Source of the DNA: Bdellovibrionales bacterium
Lineage (GTDB): Bacteria; Bdellovibrionota; FAC87; UBA2466; JACKAF01
Length of the DNA stretch: 36,951 nucleotides
Reading direction: 5' to 3'
NCBI GenBank assembly: GCA_020435295.1
Contig: JAGQZV010000013.1
Location: 1-36,951, forward strand
Positions 8,233 to 36,951 of the stretch are shown piece by piece (positions within the stretch are counted from its first letter, which is position 1; every line of letters begins with the position of its first letter). The position numbers and the translations under genes are program-made. The notes beneath the pieces were generated by a model. That model ran no database searches. It had not been told where the DNA came from and was given only the letters and a program-made list of their open reading frames with translations.

Positions 8233-8243
8233 CGATTTCGGAT

Positions 8244-20500: not shown

Positions 20501-20865
20501 AGCACCGAAAAGACCGTAACCGCGTAACTCCCTTCATCGAAGACAGGAGGGAGTTCGACCGTTCTCTCCGTGTTACTAACCAGTCCGAAAAAGCCTAGCA
20601 CCCCTCGTTGCCCGGCGGACGTTTGGGTTTCATAAACAACACTTCCACCTTGGGTGACTTGGATTTCGTAACCAGTAACATCCGAGGCCGCAGCTTCGGG
20701 GGGGGTAAACGTTACGGGGATGGTGGACGCACCGTTGGTGATGATTGGGGTGGTCACGACCGCCCGCAACAAAGCTTCCGGCCGCGAGGTACGGTTTCGC
20801 GTGTAACAGCCTGAAAAAAAGAAGGCGGCTGCAATTAGGGCAAAAATTTGGACTTGAGCGCGCAT
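17581..20865 (-). CDS. large propeller-like lipoprotein
   Basis: A 1094-residue predicted lipoprotein of unknown function. The start ATG 20865 gives MRAQVQIFALIAAAFFFSGC, a signal peptide ending in a lipobox with Cys20. Next come about 100 residues of Ig/fibronectin-like sequence with IPVTFTPPEA and YEIQVTQGG, and a second Ig-like segment (HEIRWRVTDND). The rest has many short blocks pairing an aspartate/glycine turn with hydrophobic strands, such as VDVANDGSVIFNDLWNIYRV, suggesting NHL-type or quinoprotein-like propeller blades. The frame extends to 20925, but a possible promoter lies between the two starts. It is probably surface or periplasm anchored. No ligand can be named. Confidence 0.82.
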   Translation of the reverse strand: MRAQVQIFALIAAAFFFSGCYTRNRTSRPEALLRAVVTTPIITNGASTIPVTFTPPEAAASDVTGYEIQVTQGGSVVYETQTSAGQRGVLGFFGLVSNTERTVELPPVFDEGSYAVTVFSVLWDGRKLGAGAELIVDKTPPSADLILGAEAGQGCNGAANVTNVSSRLIPFEYCGHDNLSGVAQVCVLSNSAGTPDAGDSCWEDVASLNQVAFVDHGHNDVTLFVKDRAGNIGSGRDDIEMDPGLAPQIEILSPSPSQITTAGWQPHEEHEIRWRVTDNDTPFEEIKVILSYVNANNSTDFGYLGCNFRNTREWRQCPEPSLEGSHGFRAEGGDIGSFEFRVPQSWDPGKQYLLMITAIDNSGNSFVASTQPLNVSYEVLAGKTWRGLGASGPNVDRYQGVFWIAYDKRGNIYDTTNNLRLSAVDKRSCRFAKPGGGASTPFDCENIVETAYSLHGSPWTYDAQKDVFYVMAYNPQALIEIDFKHRTSRALMTESGSALGASIVGAPVGDFSVKGADGYVYFDAVARRLLFFKSGMLYAIDTETGTLNYILGGSGEANPPEQADVAQSDLIIPFPVQSFLVTKDRRILFGGPKHPQSHNGSGRGMTYVLGSFSYENTSQPVSLQILTKNGGLGAGNEPTNYYVTQLSYDPSHDRVFMASGWHGVSVVNLPPLGSPADSYQFEWVTRYVTATGEKALFASSHSFLDTASVTLPVDFYMWSQSVIYAGSNVVLFNSRYTGSVFSLHLDRLNLERVIGNDIGSSAVTTGVNQSIEFPRSVDVANDGSVIFNDLWNIYRVTLDPSRNHELSLIGKAPSAGVFKYNSVTNELILGSRQTLTKFDLSGNLAPVHSTSPEQYAYDITMGFGNNFTELRWAYKSSIWNAASGTASKAFLVLSDFTGTVVAGGAQANPTAALLTHPDRLAVGERFCDDGSGNTVACPQAVPLGNSAYAATEYRMLTGAGSYNWYSSVGTIAFDANDENFYWCEGSRFAKYNRTSAEIRIFSAKDDRGNSVACQGPGTFEFTNGALHIGTNGKIYRFASDSNEIDLNGLAQLEPVAVAGSMPSGLLIHGFSIRNGFLYFTDGRSHRVFRIPLAS

Positions 20866-20898
20866 GGACGAGCGAAAAAGGTGCAAAACAAGGACCAA

Positions 20899-20925
20899 AT
20901 TGTACAGGCACGAGACAGTCGTCAA
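20899..20925 (-). promoter_or_regulatory. possible sigma-70 promoter of the lipoprotein gene
   Basis: Reading the - strand, TTGACG (20925-20920) and TACAAT (20904-20899) match the -35 and -10 boxes well, and a TG precedes the -10. The spacing of 15 bases is two short of ideal. Transcription would begin near 20891, about 26 bases before ATG 20865, which fits that start codon rather than the upstream one. Confidence 0.42.
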
Positions 20926-20974
20926 TTTCTTAGGAAGTTGTCGAACTTTTTGACACCCCGTCGTTCATAATCGG

Positions 20975-21001
20975 AAAACCAACCTGCAAACAGCGAGTTG
21001 G
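20975..21001 (-). terminator. possible weak terminator after the barrel-protein gene
   Basis: On the - strand, CCAAC at 21001-20997 can pair with GTTGG at 20983-20979, followed by TTTT. The stem is only five pairs and the loop is 13 bases, so the terminator is weak at best. It lies just after the gene ending at 21018 and before the possible promoter of the lipoprotein gene. Confidence 0.33.
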
Positions 21002-21017
21002 ACTGTCTGTCTAAGAA

Positions 21018-21668
21018 TTAGCGACTGGTGTTGTAGATAAAGCCAGGCTTGGCCCCTCTCGAGACGCGGAAACCCACTTGGTACACCACTTGAGCCCCCA
21101 CAATCGAGCGATTGGGAGTATCGAGATACTTTTCGAACCGAATTCCAAGACGCATGGGAATGGCATCCCGATTGGTTTCAAACATCAACTGGAACCCGGC
21201 CATGAGGGCAGTGCTCTTGGATTGTTCACTGGCGAGAATCGGCGAAAGTGCCGGCCTATAGCTCAGATCTTCTCCGAACAACACCGAAAAAAACGGCCCT
21301 GCATGAAAGATTTCGCCGAAGCGAAATCGAATGGCGGATTCCCAGGCCAAAGAAAGAGTGTCCACCCCAACAGCAAGTCCCCCGCTTCGGACACCGGCAA
21401 CGTTTTTGTATTTCAGCTTGGCACCCATCTCGAACAGGGCCGCCTTTCTGTAATAGCTAAACATCATCGCAACCCCAGCATCGGGCCCTTGTTTGTCGGC
21501 CTCTCCGGCTACTCTACTATCCAGCCACGTCCAACCCGCGTCCACACCGATGAACGTCCAAATTCCGAATAGGCGGTGATCGCCAATGAACGGCGTTTTC
21601 GATCCCCCAAGCGCGTACACGCTCCCACTTAGGAGAAAAGATAACAGAATGGCATGGAAAAACCGCAT
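21018..21668 (-). CDS. predicted outer-membrane beta-barrel-like protein
   Basis: A 216-residue protein with a Sec signal peptide (MRFFHAILLSFLLSGSVYA). The mature part has alternating strands rich in glycine and aromatic residues (for example AGWTWLDSRVAG, AGFQLMFETN, YQVGFRVSRGAKPGF), which resembles small outer-membrane barrels. I cannot assign a family. No ribosome binding site is visible before the ATG; instead a GC-rich hairpin lies about eight bases upstream (see the feature at 21677). It is transcribed divergently from the exported-protein operon starting at 21889 and is followed by the large lipoprotein gene on the same strand. Confidence 0.72.
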   Translation of the reverse strand: MRFFHAILLSFLLSGSVYALGGSKTPFIGDHRLFGIWTFIGVDAGWTWLDSRVAGEADKQGPDAGVAMMFSYYRKAALFEMGAKLKYKNVAGVRSGGLAVGVDTLSLAWESAIRFRFGEIFHAGPFFSVLFGEDLSYRPALSPILASEQSKSTALMAGFQLMFETNRDAIPMRLGIRFEKYLDTPNRSIVGAQVVYQVGFRVSRGAKPGFIYNTSR

Positions 21669-21676
21669 GAATACCG

Positions 21677-21695
21677 CGGCGCGCTATTCGCGCCG
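21677..21695 (-). promoter_or_regulatory. GC-rich hairpin directly upstream of the barrel-protein start
   Basis: CGGCGCG (21677-21683) and CGCGCCG (21689-21695) form a perfect seven-pair stem with a five-base loop. In the mRNA it ends eight bases before the ATG at 21668, where a ribosome binding site would be expected, and none is seen outside it. It may affect translation initiation; it is not followed by a U-run, so it is not a terminator. Confidence 0.4.
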
Positions 21696-21888
21696 TGCTC
21701 CCTCGGTCCCTTATCGGAAAAAAGTGGGAGGAAATAGAATGCGGCCCTCGACGTAGCGAGTCAACAGGCAGCCCCACCCTGGGCTCCCAATCAGCCGCGC
21801 TAAGACTGCGGCCACTTTTTCTCCTCTTGGATGCATCGAGTCATATTTGATAGGCTTTGCAGGCAGTTGCTTAACCAGGAGGGATGGA

Positions 21889-22773
21889 ATGAAACTCTTT
21901 TCGTGGCGCCGACGGGCGCTGGCAGCAGTCGCTTTTCTGTATTTGCTTACAAGCGCGACGCAGGGAATGGGGCAAATTTATTTGTCCTCAGACGATACCG
22001 ACGACCACATCTTCCAGCGAACCACAGAGCGCGACATGGACTCATTGGAAGAACAGTTCTTCTACATTCTGCCGGAGAACCCTCGTTCGAAGGAGATCGT
22101 CAAAGAACTCGTCGCAAAGGTCTTGAAAGAATTCCCTACGCGCCGGCTGGATGCTGTACGCTTCCAACAGCTAGCCGTACTTCCAGTGAAGGAGTTCGCC
22201 GCGTTTCGCGACAGCGACGGAAAACCAAAGGTCCGACATGATTGGAAGTCTGTGATCCTAGTGGGCATCAGGCAGTCTAAGAACGAACCTGTCATTGATA
22301 TAGAAGCTTTTATGAAAAAGGATGAGCAAATTACGACTGAGGACACCCTGATCGAATGGTTGGATCAAAATGATCTTAGGCTACTCGCCTTGCAAAACAC
22401 AAAAAATCCGCTCTCCACGCTCACCCCCATCGGTCGGGCGCCTAAGGGAAGTTCAAGCGCCGCTAAGGAAGCGGAGCGAGCGATGCTATTTGCAGACAAG
22501 GCATATGAACTCCTGTTTAAAGAATACGGCGCGTGGGTAGTTTCCACTGGCGAGATCCCAGTCCACCGTTTTGAGAAAGTGGAAGGGAGCGAAATCCAGG
22601 TCGGGTCTGAAAAACCCCTCTTTTCCGTGCCATTGTTCAGTGTTGCGGGATTCCCAACCGACTACCACTACCGCAAGGTTTTGGGTGTTGCCAACGCCGC
22701 ACCAAGGGCCTGGGGGGGAAGCTTACTGCGGCTCGGAAAGGACACTGTAATTCTACCCGGCGGAAGCGAATAG
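21889..22773 (+). CDS. exported protein of unknown function, first gene of a three-gene operon
   Basis: A 294-residue protein that I do not recognise. It starts MKLFSWRRRALAAVAFLYLL, a signal peptide that probably ends near residue 28, so the protein should be periplasmic or secreted. The mature part is mixed alpha/beta with many charged residues (DMDSLEEQFFYILPENPRSKEIVKELV) and no recognised catalytic motif. AGGAGGG at 21877-21883 before ATG 21889 decides the start; the frame is open to 21847 but lacks the signal peptide there. The next gene begins three bases after the stop, and the three genes appear to form one operon. Confidence 0.78.
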   Translation: MKLFSWRRRALAAVAFLYLLTSATQGMGQIYLSSDDTDDHIFQRTTERDMDSLEEQFFYILPENPRSKEIVKELVAKVLKEFPTRRLDAVRFQQLAVLPVKEFAAFRDSDGKPKVRHDWKSVILVGIRQSKNEPVIDIEAFMKKDEQITTEDTLIEWLDQNDLRLLALQNTKNPLSTLTPIGRAPKGSSSAAKEAERAMLFADKAYELLFKEYGAWVVSTGEIPVHRFEKVEGSEIQVGSEKPLFSVPLFSVAGFPTDYHYRKVLGVANAAPRAWGGSLLRLGKDTVILPGGSE

Positions 22774-22776
22774 CGG

Positions 22777-24732
22777 ATGCGGGGTGCCCGTTTCTGGGGT
22801 CGGTACTATCTCGTTCTGATCGCCCTCATCTCGCGTAACGCTGCGTGGGCAACCGTTTGCGGAGACGAGGTCGCTCGTGTCGAGCAGACGTACACGCGCC
22901 AACAGGGTTGGACCCTTTCGGAAGTGCTCGATGCGGTCATCGCACTTCACGAAGCCGGTTTTTGCGTGTGGGCCCCGTTTCTGCGGGAGGATAGTAGCGA
23001 CGACGGCGCCGAGTTTCTCTTCAACGCCATTGAGCGGCGCGTGCCCGTCCGCACACTCTACGCGACAGGTATCCGACTCAAAGGCACCTGGAGTGAGGTC
23101 CTCATATCGGCAAGCGCCAAGGCAAGGCGGCTTGGAAAACCCGATGTGGCGCGCGCTCTAACCCCGACCGCCGTGCGCCGTCGCGGAATGCAATTGCGCT
23201 TTCCGACCGCTATCGCGACTCAGCCAGAATCCGGCAATCGAATTAGCCCTGAACGAACCCCTTTAGAAAAATGGATTCATGAAAAGGGGGGGACGCCCAA
23301 TTGGCTCCGCAAAGAAAAGCCATGGAAGGCACCGCCAAGTTGGAGTCCGCGCGGCCAATACGACTGGAGTGAAGAAAGAATCCGAGCCGTTTTCTCCATC
23401 TTAGAATGGGAAGAAGTGTCGCTCGATAAGGCCACGATCGGGTCCGACAACCCCCTTTTGCTAGAAGCTATTCACTTCGTGATTGGAAAACATAGACCAG
23501 GCTCCCATCTGGTCAACGCAGTCGTAGCCCGTTGGGGTTCCAATTGGACACACAACCTTGAAATCTTGGGCTACCCGCCTTCGTATGGCTACCACAGTCA
23601 CTGGACGAAGAAACGCATCACGCGAGCGATTCTGGCTCTCTATCTTGCGAATCGCCCACTGAGCGCACTAAAGGTAAGCTTGGACCGCACCGTGCGCGGG
23701 CGCCGTGTGATCAAACGCGAAATTGGAATCGACACGACGGCCGCGGCAGTCTACCAGGCCGCCAAGAAATATTTTGGAAACTGGGATGCTGCCCTCCTCT
23801 CAGCCGGTTTGGATCCGGAAGCGATCCGCCTACGTTCCGCGAAGGCTTACTGGGACGCAGAAAAAGTCACCACCGCCATTTACTGGCTGGCACACCATGG
23901 GGTCGCACTAAACCCCAATGCGATTTCCCTGGATGCATCAGAAAGAACCAAACGCATTCTGGCCCAAGCCATCGGCTGGCCGTCGACCGGGAAATCGCTT
24001 TACCTGCAAGCATTCAAGCTGTTTGGCGGGTGGTGGGACGCGCTCGAAGCCGCCGGTTTTGATCCGGATGAATACTTCTACTACCGAAAGTATAGTGAAA
24101 AGAATCTAATCGATGCAGTGAACACTCTCCATCGGGCAAAAGTTCCACTAAATGCGTACGCGATACAAAATGATTTCTCGCCTGAAACCAAGGCCCTTAT
24201 AAAAAAAGCAATCGGGTGGACGGCAAGCGGCAAGGCCATCTACGACGCTGCGTTTCGAATGTACGGGCGCGGGGGCTGGGACGCGCTGCTTATCCGAGCG
24301 GGAAAAGATCCCCGGGCTATCCGCAAGCGCCACTACGCCCGTTCGGGGCTTAGCCTCGTCACTTTACAAACCGTGTTGGATAGTGACGCACCGGCCACGC
24401 GGAGTTGGCAGAGTACGCCCTCCGGTGAACGTAACGCTATGGACGCAGATGCCGAGGAGTTTTGTGCCGAGCTCATTCGAATCATCGAGGAACTGCCCGA
24501 CGAGGAGCGGGAGTTGAATTATTCCCTGTTGGATACCCTCGTCGACAACCGAACTGCGGACGACGTCTCTGCTTTAGTTACTGTACTTTCGATGGAGCGG
24601 GAAGAAGCCTACTCGCCCATCCAGGTTGAGAGTGCTCTCAAATTTCTGACAGCGCATGAGAAGTTGATCCGCTTCCGCTGGCGATCCACACCCAACCGCA
24701 GCGGCAGGCGAAGTTTTGATTACCGAAACTGA
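22777..24732 (+). CDS. predicted exported protein with homing-endonuclease-associated-type repeats
   Basis: A 651-residue protein with a hydrophobic N-terminus (YYLVLIALISRNAAWA) that looks like a signal peptide. The middle holds about four related units of ~80 residues starting near 195, 273, 356 and 438. Each has a helix with an AI..L pattern, a linker, an (I)G(W) spot, then A...FG.WDAAL..AGLDP (FGNWDAALLSAGLDP, FGGWWDALEAAGFDP, GRGGWDALLIRAGKDP). This pattern resembles the repeats found beside HNH homing endonucleases (Pfam HNH_repeat type), thought to bind DNA. No HNH nuclease motif is seen. A degenerate copy may lie near residues 44-125. The C-terminus (~500-651) is acidic, then basic, and unrecognised. 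Confidence 0.75.
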   Translation: MRGARFWGRYYLVLIALISRNAAWATVCGDEVARVEQTYTRQQGWTLSEVLDAVIALHEAGFCVWAPFLREDSSDDGAEFLFNAIERRVPVRTLYATGIRLKGTWSEVLISASAKARRLGKPDVARALTPTAVRRRGMQLRFPTAIATQPESGNRISPERTPLEKWIHEKGGTPNWLRKEKPWKAPPSWSPRGQYDWSEERIRAVFSILEWEEVSLDKATIGSDNPLLLEAIHFVIGKHRPGSHLVNAVVARWGSNWTHNLEILGYPPSYGYHSHWTKKRITRAILALYLANRPLSALKVSLDRTVRGRRVIKREIGIDTTAAAVYQAAKKYFGNWDAALLSAGLDPEAIRLRSAKAYWDAEKVTTAIYWLAHHGVALNPNAISLDASERTKRILAQAIGWPSTGKSLYLQAFKLFGGWWDALEAAGFDPDEYFYYRKYSEKNLIDAVNTLHRAKVPLNAYAIQNDFSPETKALIKKAIGWTASGKAIYDAAFRMYGRGGWDALLIRAGKDPRAIRKRHYARSGLSLVTLQTVLDSDAPATRSWQSTPSGERNAMDADAEEFCAELIRIIEELPDEERELNYSLLDTLVDNRTADDVSALVTVLSMEREEAYSPIQVESALKFLTAHEKLIRFRWRSTPNRSGRRSFDYRN

Positions 24733-25964
24733 TGAAGTACCGTCTAGAAATTCTGTGGGTTTCACTTTTCCCTTTTCTCTGCTGGGGCGACGGGCTGCTG
24801 CGTATGGATCGCGCAGTGGAAACTCATAATGGCATTTACGTCTTTTCATTTGTGGAAAATGGGTCGCACGTGCACCCACCTGGACTGAGCGCGCTCTCGC
24901 GCCGAGCGCGGAGAGATTTGTCGGCGCAAGCCCGCGCTCAGATCCAGACGCTTGGTAACTTCAGACAATTTGAAACGAACGAACGGCTGGCCGCAACCCA
25001 AGCAACACTGCTCGAACAAGTCCGCCACGAAATCGCCCCCTGGAAAATCAATGCTCTCATTCAGAGTGGGTTAATCCAACCCACTGAAGATCAAGAGATC
25101 CTTCGTTTTCTACTTCAAACGGAGGCGCTGGAAAACAACAGCAGCATTCTCTTCGTCCGCCGCTACTGGCGGGACAGACGCACTTCGGGGGAGTTTCACC
25201 CGTACGTTGCCAATCTGATAGAACGTCAGGGAGTTTTGCGCAGTAAGCTCGTGGGGCTACTCGCCGTTTCACGCCTGGAGCCCGGGCAGGAGAGTTTCCC
25301 AGCTGAAACGAACCTAGCTGAAACGGGATTACGCTTCGCACGCCCTTACCCTTCGGCACTTCCAGCCAAACTCAAAGCCCCCCGCCTTTGGATCCCAGGC
25401 TGGGAGCAAACAGGCTTAAGACGCAAGTATGGCGGAACCATTGTTCTAAATAGCAATATAGTCGACGACCCCGGCCAACCGTCAGTTAGGCCGTTGATCT
25501 ATTACGTAGCTTTCACCCACGGGCTTTTCTCCACTGCGCAGATCGTGCCCTCGGGGAAAACCGGAATATTTGACGACAACGAATCGCTTTCCGGACCGTA
25601 CGGTCTCGTACCCTCACAAATCGCAATAGAAGCAGTAGGCGCTTCCCTGAAGAGATTTTACGAGAAGGAAGGCTGGGTGCATCAGGTGACGAAAGAATCG
25701 CCAAAGGGAAAGCGTTACCACGGACACGTTTTGACGATGGACTACTCTAGCTTCATCGATACCTACGCATTGCAACAACTTAGTAACCCGGGTGCCGAAC
25801 TCCTACGAGGCGCCAAGTTCGGTAGCCCGCAACTGGTTTTTCTTTCTGAACAGAATAGTGGCCAAGTGGGCGAGATGAGAGATCCGCTCGGCAACTCAAA
25901 ATATCTATCCCGTTGCATCGGGGCACTTCTCGGCGAAACAGCGCTGAATTTAATTGGCCAGTAA
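24732..25964 (+). CDS. exported protein of unknown function, last gene of the operon
   Basis: A 410-residue protein that I do not recognise. It starts MKYRLEILWVSLFPFLCWGDG, a short signal peptide. The N-terminal third is helical and charged; the C-terminal half contains aromatic and glycine-rich stretches such as PRLWIPGWEQTG and DDNESLSGPYGLVPSQIA. The ATG overlaps the stop of the preceding gene by one base, so translation is probably coupled, but no ribosome binding site is obvious. It ends just before the hairpin at 25972-26000. Confidence 0.75.
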   Translation: MKYRLEILWVSLFPFLCWGDGLLRMDRAVETHNGIYVFSFVENGSHVHPPGLSALSRRARRDLSAQARAQIQTLGNFRQFETNERLAATQATLLEQVRHEIAPWKINALIQSGLIQPTEDQEILRFLLQTEALENNSSILFVRRYWRDRRTSGEFHPYVANLIERQGVLRSKLVGLLAVSRLEPGQESFPAETNLAETGLRFARPYPSALPAKLKAPRLWIPGWEQTGLRRKYGGTIVLNSNIVDDPGQPSVRPLIYYVAFTHGLFSTAQIVPSGKTGIFDDNESLSGPYGLVPSQIAIEAVGASLKRFYEKEGWVHQVTKESPKGKRYHGHVLTMDYSSFIDTYALQQLSNPGAELLRGAKFGSPQLVFLSEQNSGQVGEMRDPLGNSKYLSRCIGALLGETALNLIGQ

Positions 25965-27779: not shown

Positions 27780-27837
27780 ACAAGTCGCTCTGCGGACGAT
27801 TCCCTAGAGAATTTGCTCTTTTCGTCGTCATTCATAA

Positions 27838-27855
27838 CTAGTAGAAGAGTACTAG
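27838..27855. promoter_or_regulatory. inverted repeat upstream of the octahaem cytochrome operon
   Basis: CTAGTA-GAAGAG-TACTAG is a perfect six-base inverted repeat with a six-base spacer, located 32 bases before the proposed start of the cytochrome gene. A short TTGATCAA palindrome follows at 27858-27865. Both could be operators of a redox or nitrogen-oxide regulator, but neither matches a consensus that I can name. Confidence 0.4.
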
Positions 27856-27887
27856 CATTGATCAAAATGCGAGTGGAGGGTACTGAC

Positions 27888-29387
27888 TTGAAAGCTTTCG
27901 GTGACTTGGCCATGGGGCAATTTTTCCCATTACGGATACGAAACGTCACAGTATGGCTTCAACTGGTGTTTTTGGGAGTCACCTTGCAGCTTCCCACGAG
28001 TTTTGCACTCAACCCACCGACCGGCCGAGGGTTTTCCCGGGAGTCGCAAGCGTGCTTGGATTGCCACGAAAAGAGCTCTCACGGCATCACCCAGCAATGG
28101 GGCGCCTCAAAACATTACCGCGCAAAGGTCGGGTGTTTTGAATGCCACCAGGCCAACGCGAATGATGTTGACGGCTTTGTTCACCATGGCCAGCGCATTG
28201 CGATCATTGTATCTCCCAGCGATTGCCGTCGGTGCCACCAAAAGGAAGTCGATGAATTCGAGCACAGCCACCACGCACAAGCCGGCAAGATCATGGGATC
28301 CCTAGACAATACGCTTGCCGAAATTGTTGAGGGAGATACCGGATTTGTTACTCCCGCTTTCCCGCACGGAGTTTCAGCCGCCGCAGTAAGTGGTTGTTGG
28401 CAATGCCATGGGAGCGAGGTCAAAGTTATCAAAGGCGGTAAACTTGATCCAGCCACATGGCCAAACACAGGGATTGGCCGCCTTAACCCGGACGGCAGTC
28501 GCGGTGCGTGTACCGCGTGTCACAGCCGCCACAAATTTTCCGTGGCACAAGCTAGGAACCCCGAAAACTGTGGCAAGTGTCACATGGGCCCGGATCACCC
28601 GCAGCTGGAAATCTACAACGAATCTAAGCACGGCATCGCCTTCAGAGCGAATCTGAACGAGATGAATATGGAAAACTCGAAGTGGATTGTCGGGGAGGAC
28701 TATAACGCCGCCCCTACCTGCGCCACCTGTCACATGTCGGCGACCAAAGATATGCCAGTCACCCACGACGTAGGCATGCGCATTTCTTGGAACAACCGTC
28801 CCATCAAGTCAGTCAGGCCGGAGGTAGCTGACAAGAAAATGGGACTGCCGGGAGCAAACATTGATTGGAAAACGCGTCGGAAGAACATGCAAAACGTCTG
28901 TTTGAACTGTCACAACCAAGTGTACGTAGATGCCTTTTACAAACAGTACGATGCGCTTATCGACTTATACCACAAGAAGTTTGCGGATCCGGGAATCGCC
29001 TTAATGGAAAAGGCACGTCCGCTGCTCAATCCCATAGAGTTTACGAATAAACTCGACTTCATTTGGTTTGAGCTTTGGCACCACGAGGGAAGACGTGCGC
29101 GGCACGCGGCATCGATGATGGCGCCCGATTACACGCACTGGCATGGGACCTATGAGATTGCGCAACACTTTTACGTGAAGTTCCTGCCGGAGCTGCAACA
29201 TCTTGTTGAAAAGCATGAAAAGCACGCCGATGCGGCAAAAGTGACGGCCGCCGACGCGTTAAAAAAGGAAATTGATCGCGTGCTTAATTCGCCAGAGCAC
29301 CGCTGGTTCTTGGGAAAAATGTCCCCTGAGGAAAAGAAGCAGAGAGAGCAACGAGCTAAAGAGTTTAAGGACCGGTATAAGAATTAG
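27888..29387 (+). CDS. octahaem cytochrome c, hydroxylamine oxidoreductase (HAO) family
   Basis: A 499-residue periplasmic multihaem protein with eight CXXCH motifs, in order CLDCH, CFECH, CRRCH, CWQCH, CTACH, CGKCH, CATCH and CLNCH, spaced as in HAO-type cytochromes. After the last motif a helical region has DYTHWHGTYE (residues 414-423), the area where HAO carries its haem-crosslinking tyrosine, and THDVGMRISW follows the seventh motif. The family oxidises hydroxylamine or hydrazine, or reduces nitrite/hydroxylamine to ammonium. I prefer TTG 27888, with GGAGGG seven bases upstream; ATG 27912 is the alternative and gives a compact signal peptide ending FAL-N. Coupling to an NrfD-type membrane protein favours a quinone-linked reductase role, by inference. 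Confidence 0.88.
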   Translation: MKAFGDLAMGQFFPLRIRNVTVWLQLVFLGVTLQLPTSFALNPPTGRGFSRESQACLDCHEKSSHGITQQWGASKHYRAKVGCFECHQANANDVDGFVHHGQRIAIIVSPSDCRRCHQKEVDEFEHSHHAQAGKIMGSLDNTLAEIVEGDTGFVTPAFPHGVSAAAVSGCWQCHGSEVKVIKGGKLDPATWPNTGIGRLNPDGSRGACTACHSRHKFSVAQARNPENCGKCHMGPDHPQLEIYNESKHGIAFRANLNEMNMENSKWIVGEDYNAAPTCATCHMSATKDMPVTHDVGMRISWNNRPIKSVRPEVADKKMGLPGANIDWKTRRKNMQNVCLNCHNQVYVDAFYKQYDALIDLYHKKFADPGIALMEKARPLLNPIEFTNKLDFIWFELWHHEGRRARHAASMMAPDYTHWHGTYEIAQHFYVKFLPELQHLVEKHEKHADAAKVTAADALKKEIDRVLNSPEHRWFLGKMSPEEKKQREQRAKEFKDRYKN

Positions 29388-29396
29388 GCGCGGGAC

Positions 29397-29768
29397 ATGA
29401 TTCAGGAGATAACTCAGGTTCTCAAAGACATGCCAGCAGGGGGGAGCTTTCTACGTTTTGACGAAGGTGGAGAGCTGTTACCCCAATACGGAAAACAAGT
29501 GCTGGCCGTTTTTGAGCTGTGGCAGTCTCCGCTGCTCCTTGACGGGAAGCAGGATCGGCTCCGGTGCCTTGCGGCGCTCTTGCCCCACGGAAAGATTCAC
29601 GTCGCGGAGTCCTTTTTTGTGCTTGCAGACACGAATACCTACCTAGGAACCGGGCGTGTCTTTAGAATAGATCTACCCGATGGGAAGTATGACGAGACCC
29701 AGGATGATATTCTTATCGACGAACTGAGGGAAGCCCTTCTAAAGGGGACCTCTGAGGGGGTCGGGTGA
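29397..29768 (+). CDS. small cytoplasmic protein of unknown function in the cytochrome operon
   Basis: A 123-residue protein without signal peptide or membrane segment, so cytoplasmic. It starts MIQEITQVLKDMPAGGSFLRF and has a strand-rich middle (GKIHVAESFFVLADTNTYLGTGRVFRIDLP) and an acidic helical end. I recognise no family. It begins nine bases after the octahaem gene and overlaps the next gene by four bases (GTGA), so it is clearly part of the operon. A role in complex assembly or regulation is possible but not shown. Confidence 0.72.
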   Translation: MIQEITQVLKDMPAGGSFLRFDEGGELLPQYGKQVLAVFELWQSPLLLDGKQDRLRCLAALLPHGKIHVAESFFVLADTNTYLGTGRVFRIDLPDGKYDETQDDILIDELREALLKGTSEGVG

Positions 29769-29998
29769 CGAGCGCCGAAAAAACAATGTGGCTCGGGGCC
29801 ATCGAGGCGCTTGTCAGGCGGGGTACCGGGCAGCTCGACGAAGCGCAGCTTGCGCAAATCGAAGCGAGAGTCGATTTGGATGCATTTTACGAGACTCAGA
29901 CTCCGGATATAAAAAAAGCGATAGACGCCACGATTTCCCTTAACGGAAACGGATTGGAAGTACTTTTGAGCGAACTCGAGGAGATCTTGGAAACTTGA
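29765..29998 (+). CDS. small helical cytoplasmic protein of unknown function
   Basis: A 77-residue acidic, mostly helical protein (TMWLGAIEALVRRGTGQLDE, IEARVDLDAFYET, SELEEILET) with no signal or membrane segment. GTG 29765 overlaps the stop of the preceding gene, and the tetrahaem cytochrome start overlaps its stop. It has no motif I recognise. The tight overlaps on both sides support that it is translated and belongs to the same complex or pathway. Confidence 0.7.
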   Translation: MTSAEKTMWLGAIEALVRRGTGQLDEAQLAQIEARVDLDAFYETQTPDIKKAIDATISLNGNGLEVLLSELEEILET

Positions 29999-30468
29999 AA
30001 GTTCTAGTATTGAACCTGTTACTTCTCTCTTTCGCTCGTGCAGACAACGTAGTAATGGTCGAACGCACGGGCTCTATGCCCGGTTTTCCATGCATGAAGT
30101 GCCACCAACATACGGATCCTCAATCCGAAGGGAATCTCCCGCATCACCGAACCGAAATTCACCACATGGAAACGGGCGGCGACTGCTATCTTTGCCACGA
30201 TAAGGCCGACCGCAACCAGCTCCGTTTATTGAGCGGTACTACAATTTCCTTCGATGCCTCCCACGAAATGTGCTTGCAATGCCATGGGGATAAGAAGCGG
30301 GAATGGCTCGACGGAACACACGGCAAACAAATTGGCAGCTGGAATGGGCAAAGATATCGCCTTCAGTGCGTAGAGTGCCACAACCCTCACAGCCCGGCAT
30401 TTAAGAAAATGAAACCCGATCCCTCCCCTAAACGACCGAAATTTTCGATTCCGAAAGGGACTCACTGA
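29995..30468 (+). CDS. periplasmic tetrahaem cytochrome c
   Basis: A 157-residue protein with a short signal peptide (MKVLVLNLLLLSFARA) and four CXXCH motifs: CMKCH, CYLCH, CLQCH and CVECH. Extra histidines (HHRTEIHH) could supply distal ligands. It probably shuttles electrons between the membrane complex and the octahaem enzyme, much as the DsrJ, QrcA or cytochrome c3-type subunits do in other NrfD-containing complexes. TTG 29995 overlaps the preceding stop, with GAGGAGA about ten bases upstream. The stop overlaps the next ATG by one base. Confidence 0.87.
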   Translation: MKVLVLNLLLLSFARADNVVMVERTGSMPGFPCMKCHQHTDPQSEGNLPHHRTEIHHMETGGDCYLCHDKADRNQLRLLSGTTISFDASHEMCLQCHGDKKREWLDGTHGKQIGSWNGQRYRLQCVECHNPHSPAFKKMKPDPSPKRPKFSIPKGTH

Positions 30469-31400
30469 TGCCTGATTACGGAAAGCGTTTGCAGAAGAGT
30501 GTAGAACAGAGTTTGGGGATGCCCATTAGGCGACGCTCCTTCCTTAAGGGACTTCTGGCCGGCGGTGCCGCTGCAACGGTCCCACTAAAAACCGCCAACG
30601 CATTTTCTTGGGAGACTTTTTTCCAAAAGCACTACAAAGAGATGACCTCAAAAGACAAAGAACGTGTCTTTAAGCGCATCAAAGCAGAAGTAAAAAAGAA
30701 GTATCAGGTTGACCCCGTGATACTGGATCCGGCTCCTATGGATGGAGTGCGGTTCGCCTTTTGCCTCAATCTTTCGAAATGCAATGGTTCGCGCTACTGC
30801 GTCAGTGCTTGCGTCAAGGAGAATAACCAGGGCCGCGAGCCTGAGATGCAATACATTAAGGTCATTGAAATGGAGATGGGCAGCCTAAATTTAGAGCGCG
30901 GTGACCTCTATTATAACGCAGAATCGGTACCACGCGACGGCAAGTTCTATCTACCGGCGCAGTGCAACCAATGTGAGAAGCCCCCCTGCACGAAAGTGTG
31001 CCCAGTCGAAGCCACTTGGAAAGAGCCGGACGGGATCGTGGTCATAGATTACGACTGGTGTATCGGGTGTCGCTATTGCATGTCTGCATGCCCATATGAA
31101 GCACGGCGCTTTAACTTTACCGAGCCCAAAGTTCCCCAAGGCGACATCAATCCGAATCAAGGTTACTTGAGCAATCGAATGCGGCCCAAAGGAGTCGTCG
31201 AGAAGTGCCATTTTTGCCTTCATCGGACGCGTAACGGACAATACCCAGCCTGCCTAGAAGCGTGCCCAACGGGGGCTAGGAAGTTTGGCGACTTAAACGA
31301 TCCCAACAGCGAGGTTTCGAAGGTTCTAAAAACCAAACGTGTTTTTGTGTTGAAAGAGGAACTCAATACAATTCCTCGTTTCTTTTACTATTTTGATTAA
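30468..31400 (+). CDS. Tat-exported 4Fe-4S ferredoxin subunit (DsrO/NrfC/HybA-like)
   Basis: A 310-residue electron-transfer subunit with a twin-arginine signal (RRRSFLKG at 21-28, then a hydrophobic run ending TANAF). The mature part has cysteine groups for about four 4Fe-4S clusters: CLNLSKCNGSRYCVSAC, CNQCEKPPCTKVCP, CIGCRYCMSACP and CHFCLHRT...CLEACP. This is the typical partner of NrfD/PsrC membrane proteins and would sit on the periplasmic side, taking electrons from the quinol site to the cytochromes. It overlaps both neighbours by one base or less. Confidence 0.92.
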   Translation: MPDYGKRLQKSVEQSLGMPIRRRSFLKGLLAGGAAATVPLKTANAFSWETFFQKHYKEMTSKDKERVFKRIKAEVKKKYQVDPVILDPAPMDGVRFAFCLNLSKCNGSRYCVSACVKENNQGREPEMQYIKVIEMEMGSLNLERGDLYYNAESVPRDGKFYLPAQCNQCEKPPCTKVCPVEATWKEPDGIVVIDYDWCIGCRYCMSACPYEARRFNFTEPKVPQGDINPNQGYLSNRMRPKGVVEKCHFCLHRTRNGQYPACLEACPTGARKFGDLNDPNSEVSKVLKTKRVFVLKEELNTIPRFFYYFD

Positions 31401-31401
31401 G

Positions 31402-32643
31402 ATGCACGACTACGCACAATACTGGTTAGCGATGATTCGATACGGTTTTCGAAAAAACCGCCTATTTAATCACTGGATGATAGGCTTAGGTGTATTCATC
31501 ATTCTTGGCCTTTCGGCATACGGAGTCCAACTCTCTCGCGGTTTGATTGCCACCAATATGACGGATCAGGTGAGCTGGGGTGCCTATATTGCAAATTTTA
31601 CGTATCTTGTAGGAGTAGCTGCAGCCGCAGTGCTACTTGTGATACCCGCCTACATATACAAGCACGACGACGTGAAGGAAGTTGTCATTATTGGCGAGCT
31701 CCTGGCGGTTTCTGCGATTGGGATGTCTTTACTCTTTATTGTTGTGGACTTGGGTCGCCCCGATCGCATGCTTCATATCATTCCACTGATCGGACGCCTC
31801 AACTTTCCGCAGTCTATTTTGGCCTGGGACGTGGTGGTTCTCACCGGATACCTGTTTTTGAACTTACACATCCCTGGGTACCTTCTTTACAAAAAATATA
31901 GAAACGAAACTCCAACGACCAAGTATTACCGGCCGTTTGTTTTCATATCTATCTTGTGGGCGGTGTCCATTCACACCGTAACGGCTTTCCTGTACAGCGG
32001 ACTGGGTGGGCGTCCGTTTTGGAATTCGGCTATCCTGGCACCGCGTTTTTTGGTGAGCGCGTTCGCGTCAGGCCCCGCGCTTATGATCCTATGCTTCTCG
32101 GCTATCAACCACGTAACCCACTACCACGTTAAACCCAGTGTCGAGACATTGATGATTCGGATCATTCGGGTGGCGCTTCCAGTGAACTACTTCCTGCTGT
32201 TTTGCGAGCTTTTCAAAGAGTTCTATACAGACTCCGTACATTCGTTATCAGCACACTATCTGTTTTTTGGGATTCAGGGTCATGGAATGCTCGTACCTTA
32301 CATTTGGGCCTCTCTACTTTTCGGGATAACCGCCGGCGCTATCTTTTTTACACGGCGTTGGGTCGCGGATCGAAGGCTTTTGCTTTTAGCCTGCGCGCTA
32401 ACCATCGTTGGCATTTGGATTGAAAAAGGGATGGGACTCATCATCCCGGGATTTATCCCCACACCGTTGGGGGACCTCGTCGAGTACACGCCGTCTTGGG
32501 TAGAGTTTTTTATTTGTTTAGGCATTTGGGCGACGGGCGCCGCCGTGTTTACCGTCATGGCACGCGTCGCCCTTGGCATCGAGATGGGAAAGCTCCGCTT
32601 GAAGGCACCTAGCCAAGTAAAAGAACCGCAGGATCGGGAATAG
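31402..32643 (+). CDS. NrfD/PsrC-family quinol-interacting membrane protein (DsrP-like)
   Basis: A 413-residue integral membrane protein with about ten hydrophobic segments and the NrfD pattern: a conserved SWGAYIANFTYLVGVAAAAV second segment, FIVVDLGRPDRMLHII, and HYHVKPSVETL. This family exchanges electrons with menaquinol or ubiquinol. Size and motifs look closest to DsrP. The start is ATG 31402 (one base after the preceding stop) or TTG 31393 with three more residues. It is the last gene of the cytochrome operon; the next gene has its own promoter at 32677. Confidence 0.92.
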   Translation: MHDYAQYWLAMIRYGFRKNRLFNHWMIGLGVFIILGLSAYGVQLSRGLIATNMTDQVSWGAYIANFTYLVGVAAAAVLLVIPAYIYKHDDVKEVVIIGELLAVSAIGMSLLFIVVDLGRPDRMLHIIPLIGRLNFPQSILAWDVVVLTGYLFLNLHIPGYLLYKKYRNETPTTKYYRPFVFISILWAVSIHTVTAFLYSGLGGRPFWNSAILAPRFLVSAFASGPALMILCFSAINHVTHYHVKPSVETLMIRIIRVALPVNYFLLFCELFKEFYTDSVHSLSAHYLFFGIQGHGMLVPYIWASLLFGITAGAIFFTRRWVADRRLLLLACALTIVGIWIEKGMGLIIPGFIPTPLGDLVEYTPSWVEFFICLGIWATGAAVFTVMARVALGIEMGKLRLKAPSQVKEPQDRE

Positions 32644-32676: not shown

Positions 32677-32705
32677 TTGGCAGCGTTGTTTTTTGCCCCT
32701 ATAAT
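32677..32705 (+). promoter_or_regulatory. sigma-70-type promoter of the Ycf35/radical SAM genes
   Basis: TTGGCA (32677-32682) and TATAAT (32700-32705) are separated by exactly 17 bases, a near-perfect housekeeping promoter. Transcription would begin near 32712, giving a leader of about 34 bases before ATG 32746. A small inverted repeat GGGCA...TGCCC (32672-32676 and 32694-32698) overlaps it and could be an operator or chance. Confidence 0.75.
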
Positions 32706-32745
32706 GGTTTCTTAGTTTCTTACTTTTTTCTGGATCGGTACCACA

Positions 32746-33117
32746 ATGAGTGCTTGTTCTTACATTCGTCTGGTGTTTTGTTCGCTTCGAAATCTAGTGG
32801 AGGCTCTTGACGAACTTCAATATGCAAGAAAAGAAATAGCGTCCTTAACTCGGCTCGATGGTAAAGTTGAGATTGTTGATTTCGCTTTTGAGGATGAAAA
32901 AGGCAACCTGATCGGAGTTCGTCAAAACAAGGAGAATGAACTAGAACTTATTGCGAGGGATGGGTGCAACCAGTCAGCTATCGAAACCATTGACAAAGTT
33001 AAGCAAACTTATGCAAGGCTGAAAATCCTCGATGAAGTGCAGCGGAAGGGATACAAGCAGGTTAAAGAAGAAATTCTTCCGGATGGCTCAATCCGGCTCG
33101 TCGTGGAGAAATGGTAA
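32746..33117 (+). CDS. Ycf35-like protein (DUF1257)
   Basis: A 123-residue protein of the Ycf35/DUF1257 family, known from cyanobacteria, algal plastids and scattered bacteria, and without established function. Signs are an N-terminal strand followed by a helix (LRNLVEALDEL), a middle FAFEDEKGNLIGVRQN region, and the C-terminal DEVQRKGYKQVKEEILPDGSIRLVVEKW pattern, which is characteristic of the family. No signal peptide, so cytoplasmic. No strong ribosome binding site is seen before the ATG. The next gene starts within its stop codon, and a Ycf46-like ATPase lies 2 kb downstream; plastid genomes also carry both ycf35 and ycf46. Confidence 0.85.
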   Translation: MSACSYIRLVFCSLRNLVEALDELQYARKEIASLTRLDGKVEIVDFAFEDEKGNLIGVRQNKENELELIARDGCNQSAIETIDKVKQTYARLKILDEVQRKGYKQVKEEILPDGSIRLVVEKW

Positions 33118-33326
33118 TGAAAAAAGAGCTCATCATTACAATTGCGCCGAATGGGAGTCTGAAAATTAAGACTGTTGGACTGAAAGGAACTGCTTGCGAA
33201 GACGAACTAAAACCAATCGAGCGCGCTATGGGAAGAGTAACGTCCCGAGAAAAAACGTCAGAGTACTATGAAAAGGACGACGCCAAGGTCAGAACTACCG
33301 CCACAACAAAGCGACATCGTTATTAG
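33117..33326 (+). CDS. DUF2997 small protein
   Basis: A 69-residue protein. The pattern ITIAPNGSLKIKTVGLKGTAC, then ERAMGRVTSREKTSEYYEK, fits DUF2997: a strand pair, a KG-x-x-C centre and a C-terminal T-x-REKT-EYYEK. Function unknown. It typically accompanies DUF1257 proteins. ATG 33117 is chosen over ATG 33111 because GGAG lies nine bases upstream of it; it overlaps the previous stop by one base. The last 59 bases overlap the radical SAM gene, so the three are translated as a tight group. Confidence 0.82.
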   Translation: MKKELIITIAPNGSLKIKTVGLKGTACEDELKPIERAMGRVTSREKTSEYYEKDDAKVRTTATTKRHRY

Positions 33327-34173
33327 ACCTAACGGCGAAGTGCTTGTTAGCTTTCTTTGGGATGATCTCTGTTTCGCCCGTGACTCGAAGCCTGTGCCCA
33401 CAGGTACGCATCCTGAAATTGAACCCCGGATCCCCCTCGAAGAATATCGCTCCTGTCGTGCGTGCCCCAAGCAATGCAACTTCAATAGAGTAACGAGCTC
33501 CCACCCCAACTGCGGAGACTACCATCTACGCGTTGGGACCTGGGGACTGACGATGGGTGACGAACGCGCGATTCGAGGGCGCATTGGATCGGGAGCGATA
33601 ATGCTTAGTGGGTGCCCGCTAACCTGCAACTCATGCCAAAATTACGAGATGGTACAAGAGGGCCATCGCGTAACCTTTGAACAATTTATCGAAATGGCGC
33701 TGACTCTCAAAGCGCGGGGCGCACATAATCTGCAAGTTCTATCCCCAACAGTTCATTTTCCAAGTTTGCGGCAACTGTTGCCTATCATAAGAAAAGAAGC
33801 ACCGAACTTCCCTATTATCTTCAAGAGTTCAGGCTACGAAAGCGTGGAGGCACTTAAACGCTTTGAAGGGCTTGTTGATATTTACTTGCCGGATCTTAAG
33901 TTTGGGAGCCAATCCAGGTGGGCGCGATGTGCTGGCGCCGGAGATTACTTACAAGTGGCTAAACTAGCCATTGATGAAATGTTTTCACAAGTAGGGCCGC
34001 TTGAAGTGGATCGGGAAGGAATTGCCTCCAAGGGACTGTTAATTCGGCATGTAAAGGCTCCTCTGCCGGCGGCAGAGCAAGAGGAACTCGAAGGATACTT
34101 GTCCGAAATGGGCCGTCGTACCCAAATATCAATACTTGAACACTTTGTCCAACTAGAGCAACCACCTACATAG
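33268..34173 (+). CDS. PflX-like radical SAM protein
   Basis: A 301-residue radical SAM enzyme of the PflX group (COG1313), related to pyruvate-formate-lyase activators but of unknown substrate. The radical SAM motif is CPLTCNSC (Cys116, Cys120, Cys123), followed by QNYEM. Before it is an auxiliary cysteine group CRACPKQC (63, 66, 70) with another Cys82. Later motifs SSGYESVEAL, VDIYLPDLKFG and GLLIRHVKAP match the family. The N-terminus (DIVIRPNGEVLVSFLWDDL) looks like an additional strand module. No pyruvate-formate-lyase gene is nearby, so another target is likely. Its end overlaps the end of the opposite-strand gene by eight bases. Confidence 0.87.
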   Translation: MKRTTPRSELPPQQSDIVIRPNGEVLVSFLWDDLCFARDSKPVPTGTHPEIEPRIPLEEYRSCRACPKQCNFNRVTSSHPNCGDYHLRVGTWGLTMGDERAIRGRIGSGAIMLSGCPLTCNSCQNYEMVQEGHRVTFEQFIEMALTLKARGAHNLQVLSPTVHFPSLRQLLPIIRKEAPNFPIIFKSSGYESVEALKRFEGLVDIYLPDLKFGSQSRWARCAGAGDYLQVAKLAIDEMFSQVGPLEVDREGIASKGLLIRHVKAPLPAAEQEELEGYLSEMGRRTQISILEHFVQLEQPPT

Positions 34174-34984
34174 ATACTGATCCCCTATGGAAATATGGCG
34201 CAGTTAGGTGGTACCAACGATGCCACCTCAACTCTCGCTCATAGTGAACTTTTAGATCGAAGTTCTTTATAGTCTGTTGATCTTTTTGAAAAGTAAGGAA
34301 ACTGGAATTAAATGCGGTAGACTGCGCAAAATGCTTCAGATCGTTAACGAGTTCAATAAAATTAAGGACGTAATCGCGCGTCAATCTCCCACCTAGATAC
34401 TCGTAATCGAAAGTGTTGGGCATAATCTGAAACCTTCTAAAAGGCCGTTCGCAAAGGACATCCAAGAATATGTGATCGGTCTTAATCTCTTTGAATTTGG
34501 CCTCTTTCCACACCAACGGCATGACTCGCCCACCGCCCCACCAGCTCCGACGCGGAGCCCCTCCCCAAATGGGCGTCCATCCTCCTTGTTCAGCGAGCTT
34601 AGTGTCGGTTTGCTCGTAGGCCGCTAAGGATATCACGGAGATTGCTTGCCAAGGAAAATACTGCGGTGTGTCTGGGTAAACAAAGAGAGAGATCTTATCG
34701 GACGAAAAGGTTGCTTTTCTCACAGTCGTAATGGGCGCCAAGGCCAAGAGTCGCTCCGACGTCGCGGTAGCACCTATGGAATGCCTGTTAAGTATCTCCG
34801 CCAGTTCGACCGCCTCGTGCTCTTCCATCGCCTGGCAGATGATCCCATAAGCCTCTCTCGAAAGTCTTTTAGCATCAAAGGTGGTCAACTTAGGCCACTC
34901 CCCGAACGCTTTAACGAGCTTTTTTTGGTCTATAGGCGCTAGGCTTTGCTGCACTACGGCAAACTTTTCCGACGACTTATGCAT
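34166..34984 (-). CDS. unrecognised 272-residue protein inside the Ycf46 locus
   Basis: A cytoplasmic protein on the strand opposite to its neighbours. The first ~95 residues look like an alpha/beta domain (AFGEWPKLTTFDAKRLSREAYGI..., EAVELAEILNRHSIGATA). The middle has a strand-rich stretch (SLFVYPDTPQYFPWQAISVISLAAY) and the last ~90 residues pair FRRFQIMPNTFDYEYLGGRL with a helical, tryptophan-rich tail. I do not recognise a named family. GGGAGCAGGAAG lies just before the ATG, supporting translation. It shares a 70-base divergent region with the Ycf46-like gene, so the two may be co-regulated. Confidence 0.75.
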   Translation of the reverse strand: MHKSSEKFAVVQQSLAPIDQKKLVKAFGEWPKLTTFDAKRLSREAYGIICQAMEEHEAVELAEILNRHSIGATATSERLLALAPITTVRKATFSSDKISLFVYPDTPQYFPWQAISVISLAAYEQTDTKLAEQGGWTPIWGGAPRRSWWGGGRVMPLVWKEAKFKEIKTDHIFLDVLCERPFRRFQIMPNTFDYEYLGGRLTRDYVLNFIELVNDLKHFAQSTAFNSSFLTFQKDQQTIKNFDLKVHYERELRWHRWYHLTAPYFHRGSVSM

Positions 34985-35006
34985 CTTCCTGCTCCCTTTC
35001 GACAGG

Positions 35007-35016
35007 TTTAGCTAAA
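35007..35016. promoter_or_regulatory. palindrome in the divergent region before the Ycf46-like gene
   Basis: TTTAGCTAAA is a perfect ten-base palindrome in the 70-base space between the divergent starts at 34984 and 35055. It could be an operator shared by both genes. No full promoter could be placed with confidence. Confidence 0.35.
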
Positions 35017-35054
35017 GAGTAAAGCGCTTATTTCCGATTAAATCTTGGGGACTT

Positions 35055-36662
35055 ATGGGAACTCCACTACCGAATACCAATACACTTAACCACACGATGA
35101 AGGAAATTGATGTCTTTATTCGGGCACGCTATCCGGTGTTGTACCTACTGACGCATGAAGAATCTAGGCTGGAAAAGCACCTCTATAGGTTAGCTGCGAA
35201 CCAAAAAAAGCAACTCCATCTGTGGAGCGCCCCAACCGGCCTAACAGCATACAGCGATCGCTCAGAGCGCCCGACCGGACGGGGAGAATACAATGACCCC
35301 ATTGAACTCCTGCGGCACATACAGCAATCAAAACAACAGGCCCTCTATCTTCTTAAGGACTTTCACCCCTTTTTGAATGATCCACATGTCGTCAGGTGTC
35401 TGCGCGAACTCGCAAGTGATTTAAAGGAAACCTATAAAACCGTTCTGATTTGCTCCCCTGAACTAAACCTTCCCATTTCTTTAGAAAAAGACATCACTAT
35501 TATTGATATCCCACTCCCTGACTTTAGAGAACTCTACCAATTATTGACCGACATTTGCAAAGTTGTTCACAGCACAAATAAAGATGCTGTCCAACTCAAC
35601 AAGAACGATGCCATTGAGATAGTTCGCGCTACGCAGGGGTTGACTCTATCCGAGGCTGAAAACGTGTTTTCAAAAGCGGTAGTTAATGACGCCGTCTTTG
35701 ACAAGAAAGACATACAGCTAATCCTAAAAGAAAAGCAGCAAATTATTCGCAAGTCACAGATTCTGGACTTCTACCCGTCAGACTCCAAGCTGGCTGAAGT
35801 AGGTGGGCTAAACAACTTGAAAGATTGGCTACGGAGAAGAGGCAAAGCATTTTCGGGCGACGCGCAGAAGTTTGGCCTAACTCCTCCGAAAGGGGTTCTG
35901 TTGTTGGGAGTACCCGGGTGCGGAAAGAGTCTAACCGCGAAAGCGATAGCAGCCGCTTGGCACACGCCGCTCGTAAAACTGGATCTGGGACGGATATTTT
36001 CCGGCCTAGTAGGAAGCTCAGAAGAAAACATGCGCAGGGCTATCAAAGTGGCAGAAAGCGTAGCCCCAGCCGTTCTGTGGATAGATGAGATTGAAAAGGG
36101 CCTCTCTGGCAGTAGCGGAAGTACTTCCGATAGCGGAACATCTGCCAGAGTCTTTGGGACGTTCCTAACCTGGATGCAGGAAAAAACGGCGCACGTGTTT
36201 GTTGTCGCCACCGCCAACAGAATTGATGCCCTTCCTCCTGAACTGCTCCGCCGAGGACGCTTCGATGAAATATTTTTCATAGATCTTCCCGGCGAAGGAA
36301 TACGAAAAAATATTCTTGAAATTCATTTGTTGAAACGAAAGAGAAATCCGAATCATTTTGACTTAGACGAGCTTGCTGCTTTGACCAATGGATTTTCTGG
36401 CGCGGAACTCGAACACTGTGTTGAGGAGGCGCTTTTTAGAGCCTTCGATCAAAACAAAGAGCTAACCCAAGGTGATTTACTGCAAGCAACCAAAACCATC
36501 ATTCCCCTTTCTAAGTCGTACCGAGAAGAGCTGACTCGATCCAGGGAGTGGGCTTCGCATAGAGCGCGTCCCGCTGACACCCCTGGTCCGCAAAATGACA
36601 GCAACTCACGGAAACTGGAGCTTTTCGATGCGCAAAAAGAGAATCGAAAAACTGGAAGTTAA
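35055..36662 (+). CDS. Ycf46-like AAA+ ATPase
   Basis: A 535-residue AAA+ protein of the Ycf46 type. The N-terminal ~200 residues form the Ycf46-specific region ([43 protein letters not shown]), itself reminiscent of a degenerate P-loop domain. The active AAA+ module has Walker A GVPGCGKS (285-292), Walker [11 protein letters not shown] (about 340-349), a sensor stretch [23 protein letters not shown] with arginines 399-402, and a C-terminal helical lid. The final ~50 residues are polar and disordered-looking. Function of Ycf46 is not settled; I recall a reported link to inorganic carbon uptake in cyanobacteria. The start ATG 35055 has GGGGA four bases upstream. Confidence 0.92.
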
Positions 36663-36951
36663 CTTCAACAGAAAACCCACACCTGATTCCAAGGTTACAA
36701 AGGAACAAGACCAATCGACAAGCTTGGAGCATCGTCACCTTGCATCGCCAAGTTTCCCAAAGCCCAGCAATGAAGCGGAATCTAGCCGTTCAGATCTTTC
36801 CAGATTGCGAGACCATTCCAAGGGAATAAGCCCCAGGCAGTTGGCAAAAAAGACGGGCCTCAGACAATCCCATTTTGAGAATTTAATGCAAAAGGCACAT
36901 CTCTCTCGAGAACTAGAACGAGCTCATCGACGAAAGACCAGAGCAGTCCTT
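36628..36951 (+). CDS. partial open reading frame after the Ycf46-like gene, cut by the window end
   Basis: I translated a frame that stays open for 108 codons to the window edge. It starts [14 protein letters not shown], overlaps the end of the Ycf46-like gene by 35 bases, and has GGAG eight bases before the ATG. The visible part is very basic and polar: a serine- and proline-rich low-complexity stretch, then ISPRQLAKKTGLRQSHFENLM, which looks like a helix-turn-helix, and a basic helix ending ERAHRRKTRAVL. A nucleic-acid-binding role is possible. The length is unknown. Confidence 0.55.
   Translation, partial: MRKKRIEKLEVNFNRKPTPDSKVTKEQDQSTSLEHRHLASPSFPKPSNEAESSRSDLSRLRDHSKGISPRQLAKKTGLRQSHFENLMQKAHLSRELERAHRRKTRAVL

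Follow-up and report, generated by a model that had tools for sequence, protein, structure and literature searches.

A recurrent DUF1257, DUF2997, radical SAM and Ycf46 gene set, and a candidate terminal docking tag on the neighbours of Ycf46

The locus and its genes

We analysed a 36,951-nt stretch of DNA from a metagenome-derived Bdellovibrionota genome, that of a Bdellovibrionales bacterium (contig JAGQZV010000013.1), called here, at its full length, the window. Towards its end lie genes for a DUF1257 (Ycf35-like) protein, a DUF2997 protein, a radical SAM protein and a Ycf46-type AAA+ ATPase. We observed that these four genes are a recurrent system found outside photosynthesis, and that unrelated proteins encoded beside Ycf46 carry a terminal RFxxLE peptide, which is the new finding reported here. 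The features of the locus are the following (aa, amino acids; ORF, open reading frame).

32677–32705, + strand: sigma-70-type promoter-like site TTGGCA-N17-TATAAT upstream of the DUF1257 gene (consensus scan, 11/12 positions)
32746–33117, + strand: DUF1257 (Ycf35-like) protein, 123 aa (PF06868, E 3e-13, 50.3 bits, above the gathering cut-off of 22.2)
33111–33326, + strand: DUF2997 protein, 71 aa (PF11211, E 8e-14, 51.6 bits, above the gathering cut-off of 24.1)
33268–34173, + strand: radical SAM protein, 301 aa, with an N-terminal CX2CX3C...C followed by CX3CX2C (C116, C120, C123)
34166–34984, − strand: 272-aa ORF separating Ycf46 from the radical SAM gene
35055–36662, + strand: Ycf46 AAA+ ATPase, 535 aa (Pfam AAA and AAA_lid_3)
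36609–36623, + strand: Ycf46 tail motif RKLEL, residues 519–523, within the low-confidence tail of the model
36628–36951, + strand: partner gene for a basic protein, cut by the contig end, its start overlapping the end of Ycf46

The gene content and the overlapping frames given by the first-pass annotation were confirmed, the overlaps being 7 bases between DUF1257 and DUF2997 and 59 bases between DUF2997 and the radical SAM gene. The same annotation had described one strong promoter. The TTGGCA-17-TATAAT site is indeed the best of the 6 sites in the scan, about 4 being expected by chance, which is no proof of function. As the 272-aa ORF on the opposite strand parts the three-gene run from Ycf46, the ATPase gene is probably not driven by this site. 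The ORF had no match in Pfam, NCBIfam or PHROG, and a search of 58 other genomes from the phylum detected no homologue; it is probably an insertion outside the module.

The DUF1257 protein of the window is a diverged subtype without the usual MSHFT start. In an alignment of 53 DUF1257 sequences MS is invariant, and G57, Y89 and G102 are nearly so. A fold search with its AlphaFold2 (AF2) model (pLDDT 81) gave nothing significant (best E 0.03; weak KA1/TBP-like resemblances), and we therefore assigned no function from the fold. G26 and C29 are invariant in a 50-sequence alignment of DUF2997. Sequence searches of the PDB with both proteins returned nothing convincing (best E ∼0.002, to unrelated proteins).

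By Pfam and sequence comparison, the N-terminal AAA-like domain of Ycf46 is degenerate and without Walker motifs, while the second AAA domain is intact (Walker A GVPGCGKS, Walker B LWIDE). The protein belongs to the Ycf46 family by its 46–60% identity to related Ycf46 proteins over its length and by the conservation of Walker A and B in 63–67 sequences. Its AF2 model (pLDDT 90, the last 20–30 residues being a low-confidence, disordered C-tail) matches the substrate-threading p97/Cdc48 over nearly the whole length (564 alignment columns, TMq up to 0.68). On the strength of this model we view Ycf46 as a Cdc48-like remodeller whose first ring is degenerate, and the earlier suggestion that it acts as a motor is plausible for a double-AAA protein of this kind. 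In the model the double-AAA fold appears to be shared over the full length; Ycf46 differs from Cdc48/p97 in its degenerate first AAA domain, in having no ubiquitin system and in lacking the p97 N domain. In p97, cofactors bind through short peptides and the C-tail recruits partners. A cyanobacterial Ycf46 (Slr0374) has been linked to the regulation of photosynthesis.

The radical SAM protein matches the Pfam Radical_SAM profile (E 2e-5) at 25.3 bits, below the cut-off of 29.5, and is placed in the superfamily on its intact CX3CX2C motif, whose three cysteines are invariant in 14 radical SAM proteins of the module. It had no relative in IMG/VR and 0 matches in the PDB sequence search. Assignment as a glycyl-radical enzyme activase was rejected (best score 21 bits against an NCBIfam activase cut-off of 174). 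The protein shares CX3CX2C with PflX/COG1313-type and NrdG-type enzymes, and its N-terminal cysteine set is as in COG1313. It differs from them in scoring below the Pfam and NCBIfam activase cut-offs, in its linkage to Ycf46 and in that no glycyl-radical enzyme was seen beside it. Genes for a [NiFe] hydrogenase and for pyruvate:ferredoxin oxidoreductase are present in the genome of the window as well, consistent with an anaerobic life in which a radical SAM enzyme could work.

Distribution of the module and of its radical SAM gene

Of 97 genomes of the phylum, 7 have DUF1257, 10 have Ycf46 and 11 match the radical SAM profile. Ycf46 accompanies DUF1257 in 6/7 genomes (p 1e-6) and radical SAM does so in 7/7 (p 3e-8), and the DUF1257, DUF2997 and radical SAM genes are adjacent in all seven DUF1257-bearing genomes. 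The related loci of the same order or phylum come from Bdellovibrionaceae, Bacteriovoracaceae and Oligoflexia assemblies. A scan for Ycf46 yielded 80 named loci from many phyla, and DUF1257 and DUF2997 adjoin it in somewhat less than half of these. For a held-out test, DUF2997 alone was used as the query; 50 usable loci were obtained from Planctomycetota (41) and Spirochaetota (9), with DUF1257 in 43, Ycf46 in 39 and radical SAM in 18. The linkage on which the first-pass annotation had based a non-photosynthetic role is thus not peculiar to this genome; it is found in the phylum and in the held-out loci, and it recurs outside photosynthetic lineages.

Versions of the module are present on plasmids of Paenibacillus, Bacillus, Paenarthrobacter and Pseudanabaena and on phages of Rhizobium, Pseudomonas and Aeromonas. 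On the Pseudanabaena plasmid (L108), DUF1257, DUF2997 and Ycf46 are interleaved with GrpE, Hsp70 and a WD40 protein. The module operon of a Zipacnadia metagenome-assembled genome (L185) also holds a zinc-ribbon SNF2 helicase, a 771-aa protein without assignment and a ferredoxin. Large conjugative plasmids of Enterobacteriaceae commonly carry a Ycf46-like ATPase (∼34% identity).

In cyanobacteria, 'cluster g' has the order DUF2997, ycf35 (DUF1257), fed7 (PMC4284462). As in the window, DUF2997 and DUF1257 are adjacent and an iron-sulfur protein is encoded next to them. Unlike in the window, the ferredoxin Fed7 takes the place of the radical SAM protein, and in the genomes sampled Ycf46 is found not in this cluster but next to a second copy of DUF1257.

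Radical SAM was detected in 9/9 Spirochaetota and 9/41 Planctomycetota loci of the held-out set and in none of 13 Omnitrophota loci. At least two subtypes exist: a PflX-like one with the N-terminal cysteine set (the group of the window, and Planctomycetota) and an NrdG-like one with GGEP (Spirochaetota and others). Because the gene was not detected in the Omnitrophota loci or in most Planctomycetota loci, is replaced by a ferredoxin in cyanobacteria and is of at least two subtypes, the radical SAM protein looks, from these comparisons, like a lineage-specific accessory recruited to the module and not part of its core. The earlier suggestion, taken to mean a system devoted chiefly to radical modification, is not borne out by this distribution.

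In the rest of the window, 3067–12810 encodes NAD-linked [NiFe] hydrogenase-like subunits and, after them, HypF, HypD and a HypE-like AIRS-domain protein, and the large ORFs in 17584–25961 (1114, 651 and 410 aa) match no Pfam family. Immediately 5′ of the module, 27813–32643 encodes a respiratory complex (a Multi-haem_cyto multihaem cytochrome, a small c-type cytochrome, a Tat-signal Fe-S protein and an NrfD-like membrane protein). A common operon of the module with these multihaem cytochrome/NrfD genes was considered and rejected, as none of the listed related loci showed them close to the module.

Terminal peptides beside and within Ycf46

A terminal RFxxLE is common to proteins that are encoded next to Ycf46 and have at least five unrelated folds. 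The carriers are zinc-ribbon, NHL-propeller, TPR, pentapeptide-repeat and SbcC-like proteins and the basic protein of Bdellovibrionota. When the gene lies directly 3′ of Ycf46 (zinc ribbon, NHL propeller or basic protein), the tag is found within about the first dozen residues, and in Planctomycetota a TPR protein carries it at the N terminus. In contractile injection clusters a linker leads to the tag at the C terminus of a small protein, with pentapeptide repeats or of another kind (...GRFGGLEL, ...NRFSRLEF). In the archaeal Candidatus Borrarchaeum (L082/L187) the module lies beside Mre11/Rad50-like genes, and the C terminus of an SbcC-like protein reads RFQSLEL. In the window, the partner gene at 36628 has the variant RIEKLE near its N terminus (codons 36640–36657), its position and kind of protein being as in L018, L019, L021, L022, L025 and L085. 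Tags are often doubled, ∼22 residues apart. In 58 aligned instances the counts were R 58, F 56, L or I 56 and E 58; the search pattern fixes R and E and fixes F and L only partly.

We scanned all six frames for terminal tags and compared the density near the module (≤5 kb) with that farther away. The density was 0.66 per 10 kb near and 0.046 far in the discovery loci (14-fold), and 0.35 near and 0.048 far in the held-out loci (7-fold). In about 30 of the tagged loci Ycf46 has no DUF1257/DUF2997 in its vicinity, and most sampled genomes of that kind are without any DUF2997. Because Ycf46 has tagged partners where the genome lacks DUF2997, it is a likelier reader of the tag than DUF1257/DUF2997. 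RFxxLE looks like an address label for the Ycf46 motor. Fed7 (L162, L164, L166, L169) has two N-terminal RSG[LF]EPELGG repeats before its ferredoxin domain, and these look like docking peptides too.

A second motif, [RK]x?[LIVM]E-hydrophobic (RKLE-hydrophobic), occurs in the C-tail of Ycf46 itself. It was found in 32/51 Ycf46 proteins with DUF1257/DUF2997 nearby and in 2/55 without (p 2e-11); shuffled tails gave 1/51 and other proteins 37/1336. The two exceptions, L077 and L102, both adjoin a radical SAM gene, and L102 lies beside injection-system genes. In the held-out loci the motif was present in only about a quarter of Ycf46 tails, and among those with Ycf46 and a DUF gene it went with a tagged neighbour (8/10 vs 7/31, p 0.002). 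Other tail endings were also observed: RRxVxRDPSxN in Planctomycetota (L208, L211, L216, L218, L225, L237), and NPFIxD in Spirochaetota and some others.

A second, diverged DUF1257-DUF2997-radical SAM copy in the same genome (L015; G000:C287, 2918–4403) lies inside a contractile injection cluster, where the neighbouring pentapeptide-repeat protein ends GRFGGLEL. In the relatives L013 and L017 and in Spirochaetota L096, sheath, tube or baseplate genes flank the whole module. The window locus itself lies outside any contractile injection gene cluster and so does not have the location of Pvc15/Cis15. Contractile injection clusters invariably encode an AAA+ ATPase, which is required for activity and dispensable for particle formation (PMC10020575). 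Pvc15 is a tandem-AAA ATPase in which D2 alone is active, and it loads effectors via a terminal signal peptide (PMC11495950). Ycf46 resembles Pvc15/Cis15 in an apparent tandem AAA architecture with only the second domain active and in the presence of an AAA+ gene in the injection cluster (PMC11495950, PMC10020575), and the action through short terminal peptides may be common to both. Pvc15, on the other hand, has an additional N domain and its effector signals are N-terminal, and DUF1257, DUF2997 and radical SAM are not described there. The module is widely conserved but unstudied: in the open-access literature searched, DUF2997 is mentioned in 2 papers and DUF1257 in 3, of which those examined describe cyanobacterial gene order only, and Ycf46 is joined neither to contractile injection nor to the motif.

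A possible tag-guided module and its alternatives

We put forward, at slightly less than even confidence, a tag-guided AAA+ remodelling or loading module, with DUF1257/DUF2997 as putative cofactors and radical SAM as a lineage-specific accessory. Ycf46 would bind the RFxxLE-hydrophobic tag at the extreme N or C terminus of a client or adaptor, usually encoded next door, and would pull, insert or hold that client. Judging from the co-variation, DUF1257 and DUF2997 may be a cofactor pair docking on the RKLE-hydrophobic peptide of the Ycf46 C-tail. In some lineages radical SAM, or in cyanobacteria ferredoxin, would contribute a redox or radical step. The module may stand in for the effector-loading ATPase Pvc15 in contractile injection clusters, and the window's own client would be the truncated basic protein encoded from 36628 onwards. 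A wider proposal, held slightly more tentatively, makes terminal RFxxLE a docking code that the Ycf46 branch of AAA+ ATPases uses in many phyla, an RKLE-type tail on the ATPase recruiting DUF1257/DUF2997.

The short, terminal and often doubled form of the tags, together with a Cdc48-like fold that suits disassembly, could also mean that RFxxLE and RKLE are assembly peptides by which the partners dock on DUF1257/DUF2997 or on one another, in which case Ycf46 would only take the finished complex apart (turnover). We consider this unlikely, as tagged partners are found with Ycf46 in genomes without DUF2997. Somewhat less probable is a radical modification by radical SAM in which DUF2997 (through its invariant Cys) or DUF1257 serves as the substrate or carrier, Ycf46 presenting or removing the modified protein. 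The constant company of radical SAM and DUF1257 in the seven Bdellovibrionota genomes, the presence of radical SAM in all held-out Spirochaetota loci and the invariance of both its cluster cysteines and the DUF2997 Cys agree with such a role. Most modules elsewhere, however, including those of Omnitrophota and cyanobacteria, keep the DUF2997 Cys without radical SAM, there are two radical SAM subtypes, and no known activase family scores above its cut-off. The chromosomal, syntenic, housekeeping setting in Omnitrophota, the retention of the module in cyanobacteria and plastids and a gene order conserved across many phyla make a mobile-element or conflict (defence-type) cassette improbable, and the least favoured of these explanations. 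In such a cassette the neighbourhoods would come from joint transfer and not from joint biochemistry, as the phage and plasmid versions, the nearby SNF2 helicase or Hsp70/GrpE genes and the patchy distribution could suggest.

Several points weigh against the tag-guided module. The motif was defined post hoc on the discovery set, so that the held-out part alone is a fair test; the tag and tail statistics count related loci as independent, and some single-frame matches in the held-out loci may be chance ORFs. The tag is not universal, being missing from many Planctomycetota modules, from cyanobacterial loci and from phage and plasmid modules, and conserved-looking Ycf46 tails differ by clade (RRxVxRDPSxN, NPFIxD). 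At the window locus an orphan gene splits Ycf46 from the other module genes, and the partner tag, RIEKLE, is a weaker form.

Plastid genomes still list ycf46 and ycf35 among the genes of unknown function; the docking code, if true, would be a first mechanistic handle on both, and as the tag is short and mutable, the problem becomes a binding experiment. The radical SAM step would be separable from the core machine. The module also points to an ATPase and a labelled protein that may serve a group of contractile injection systems.

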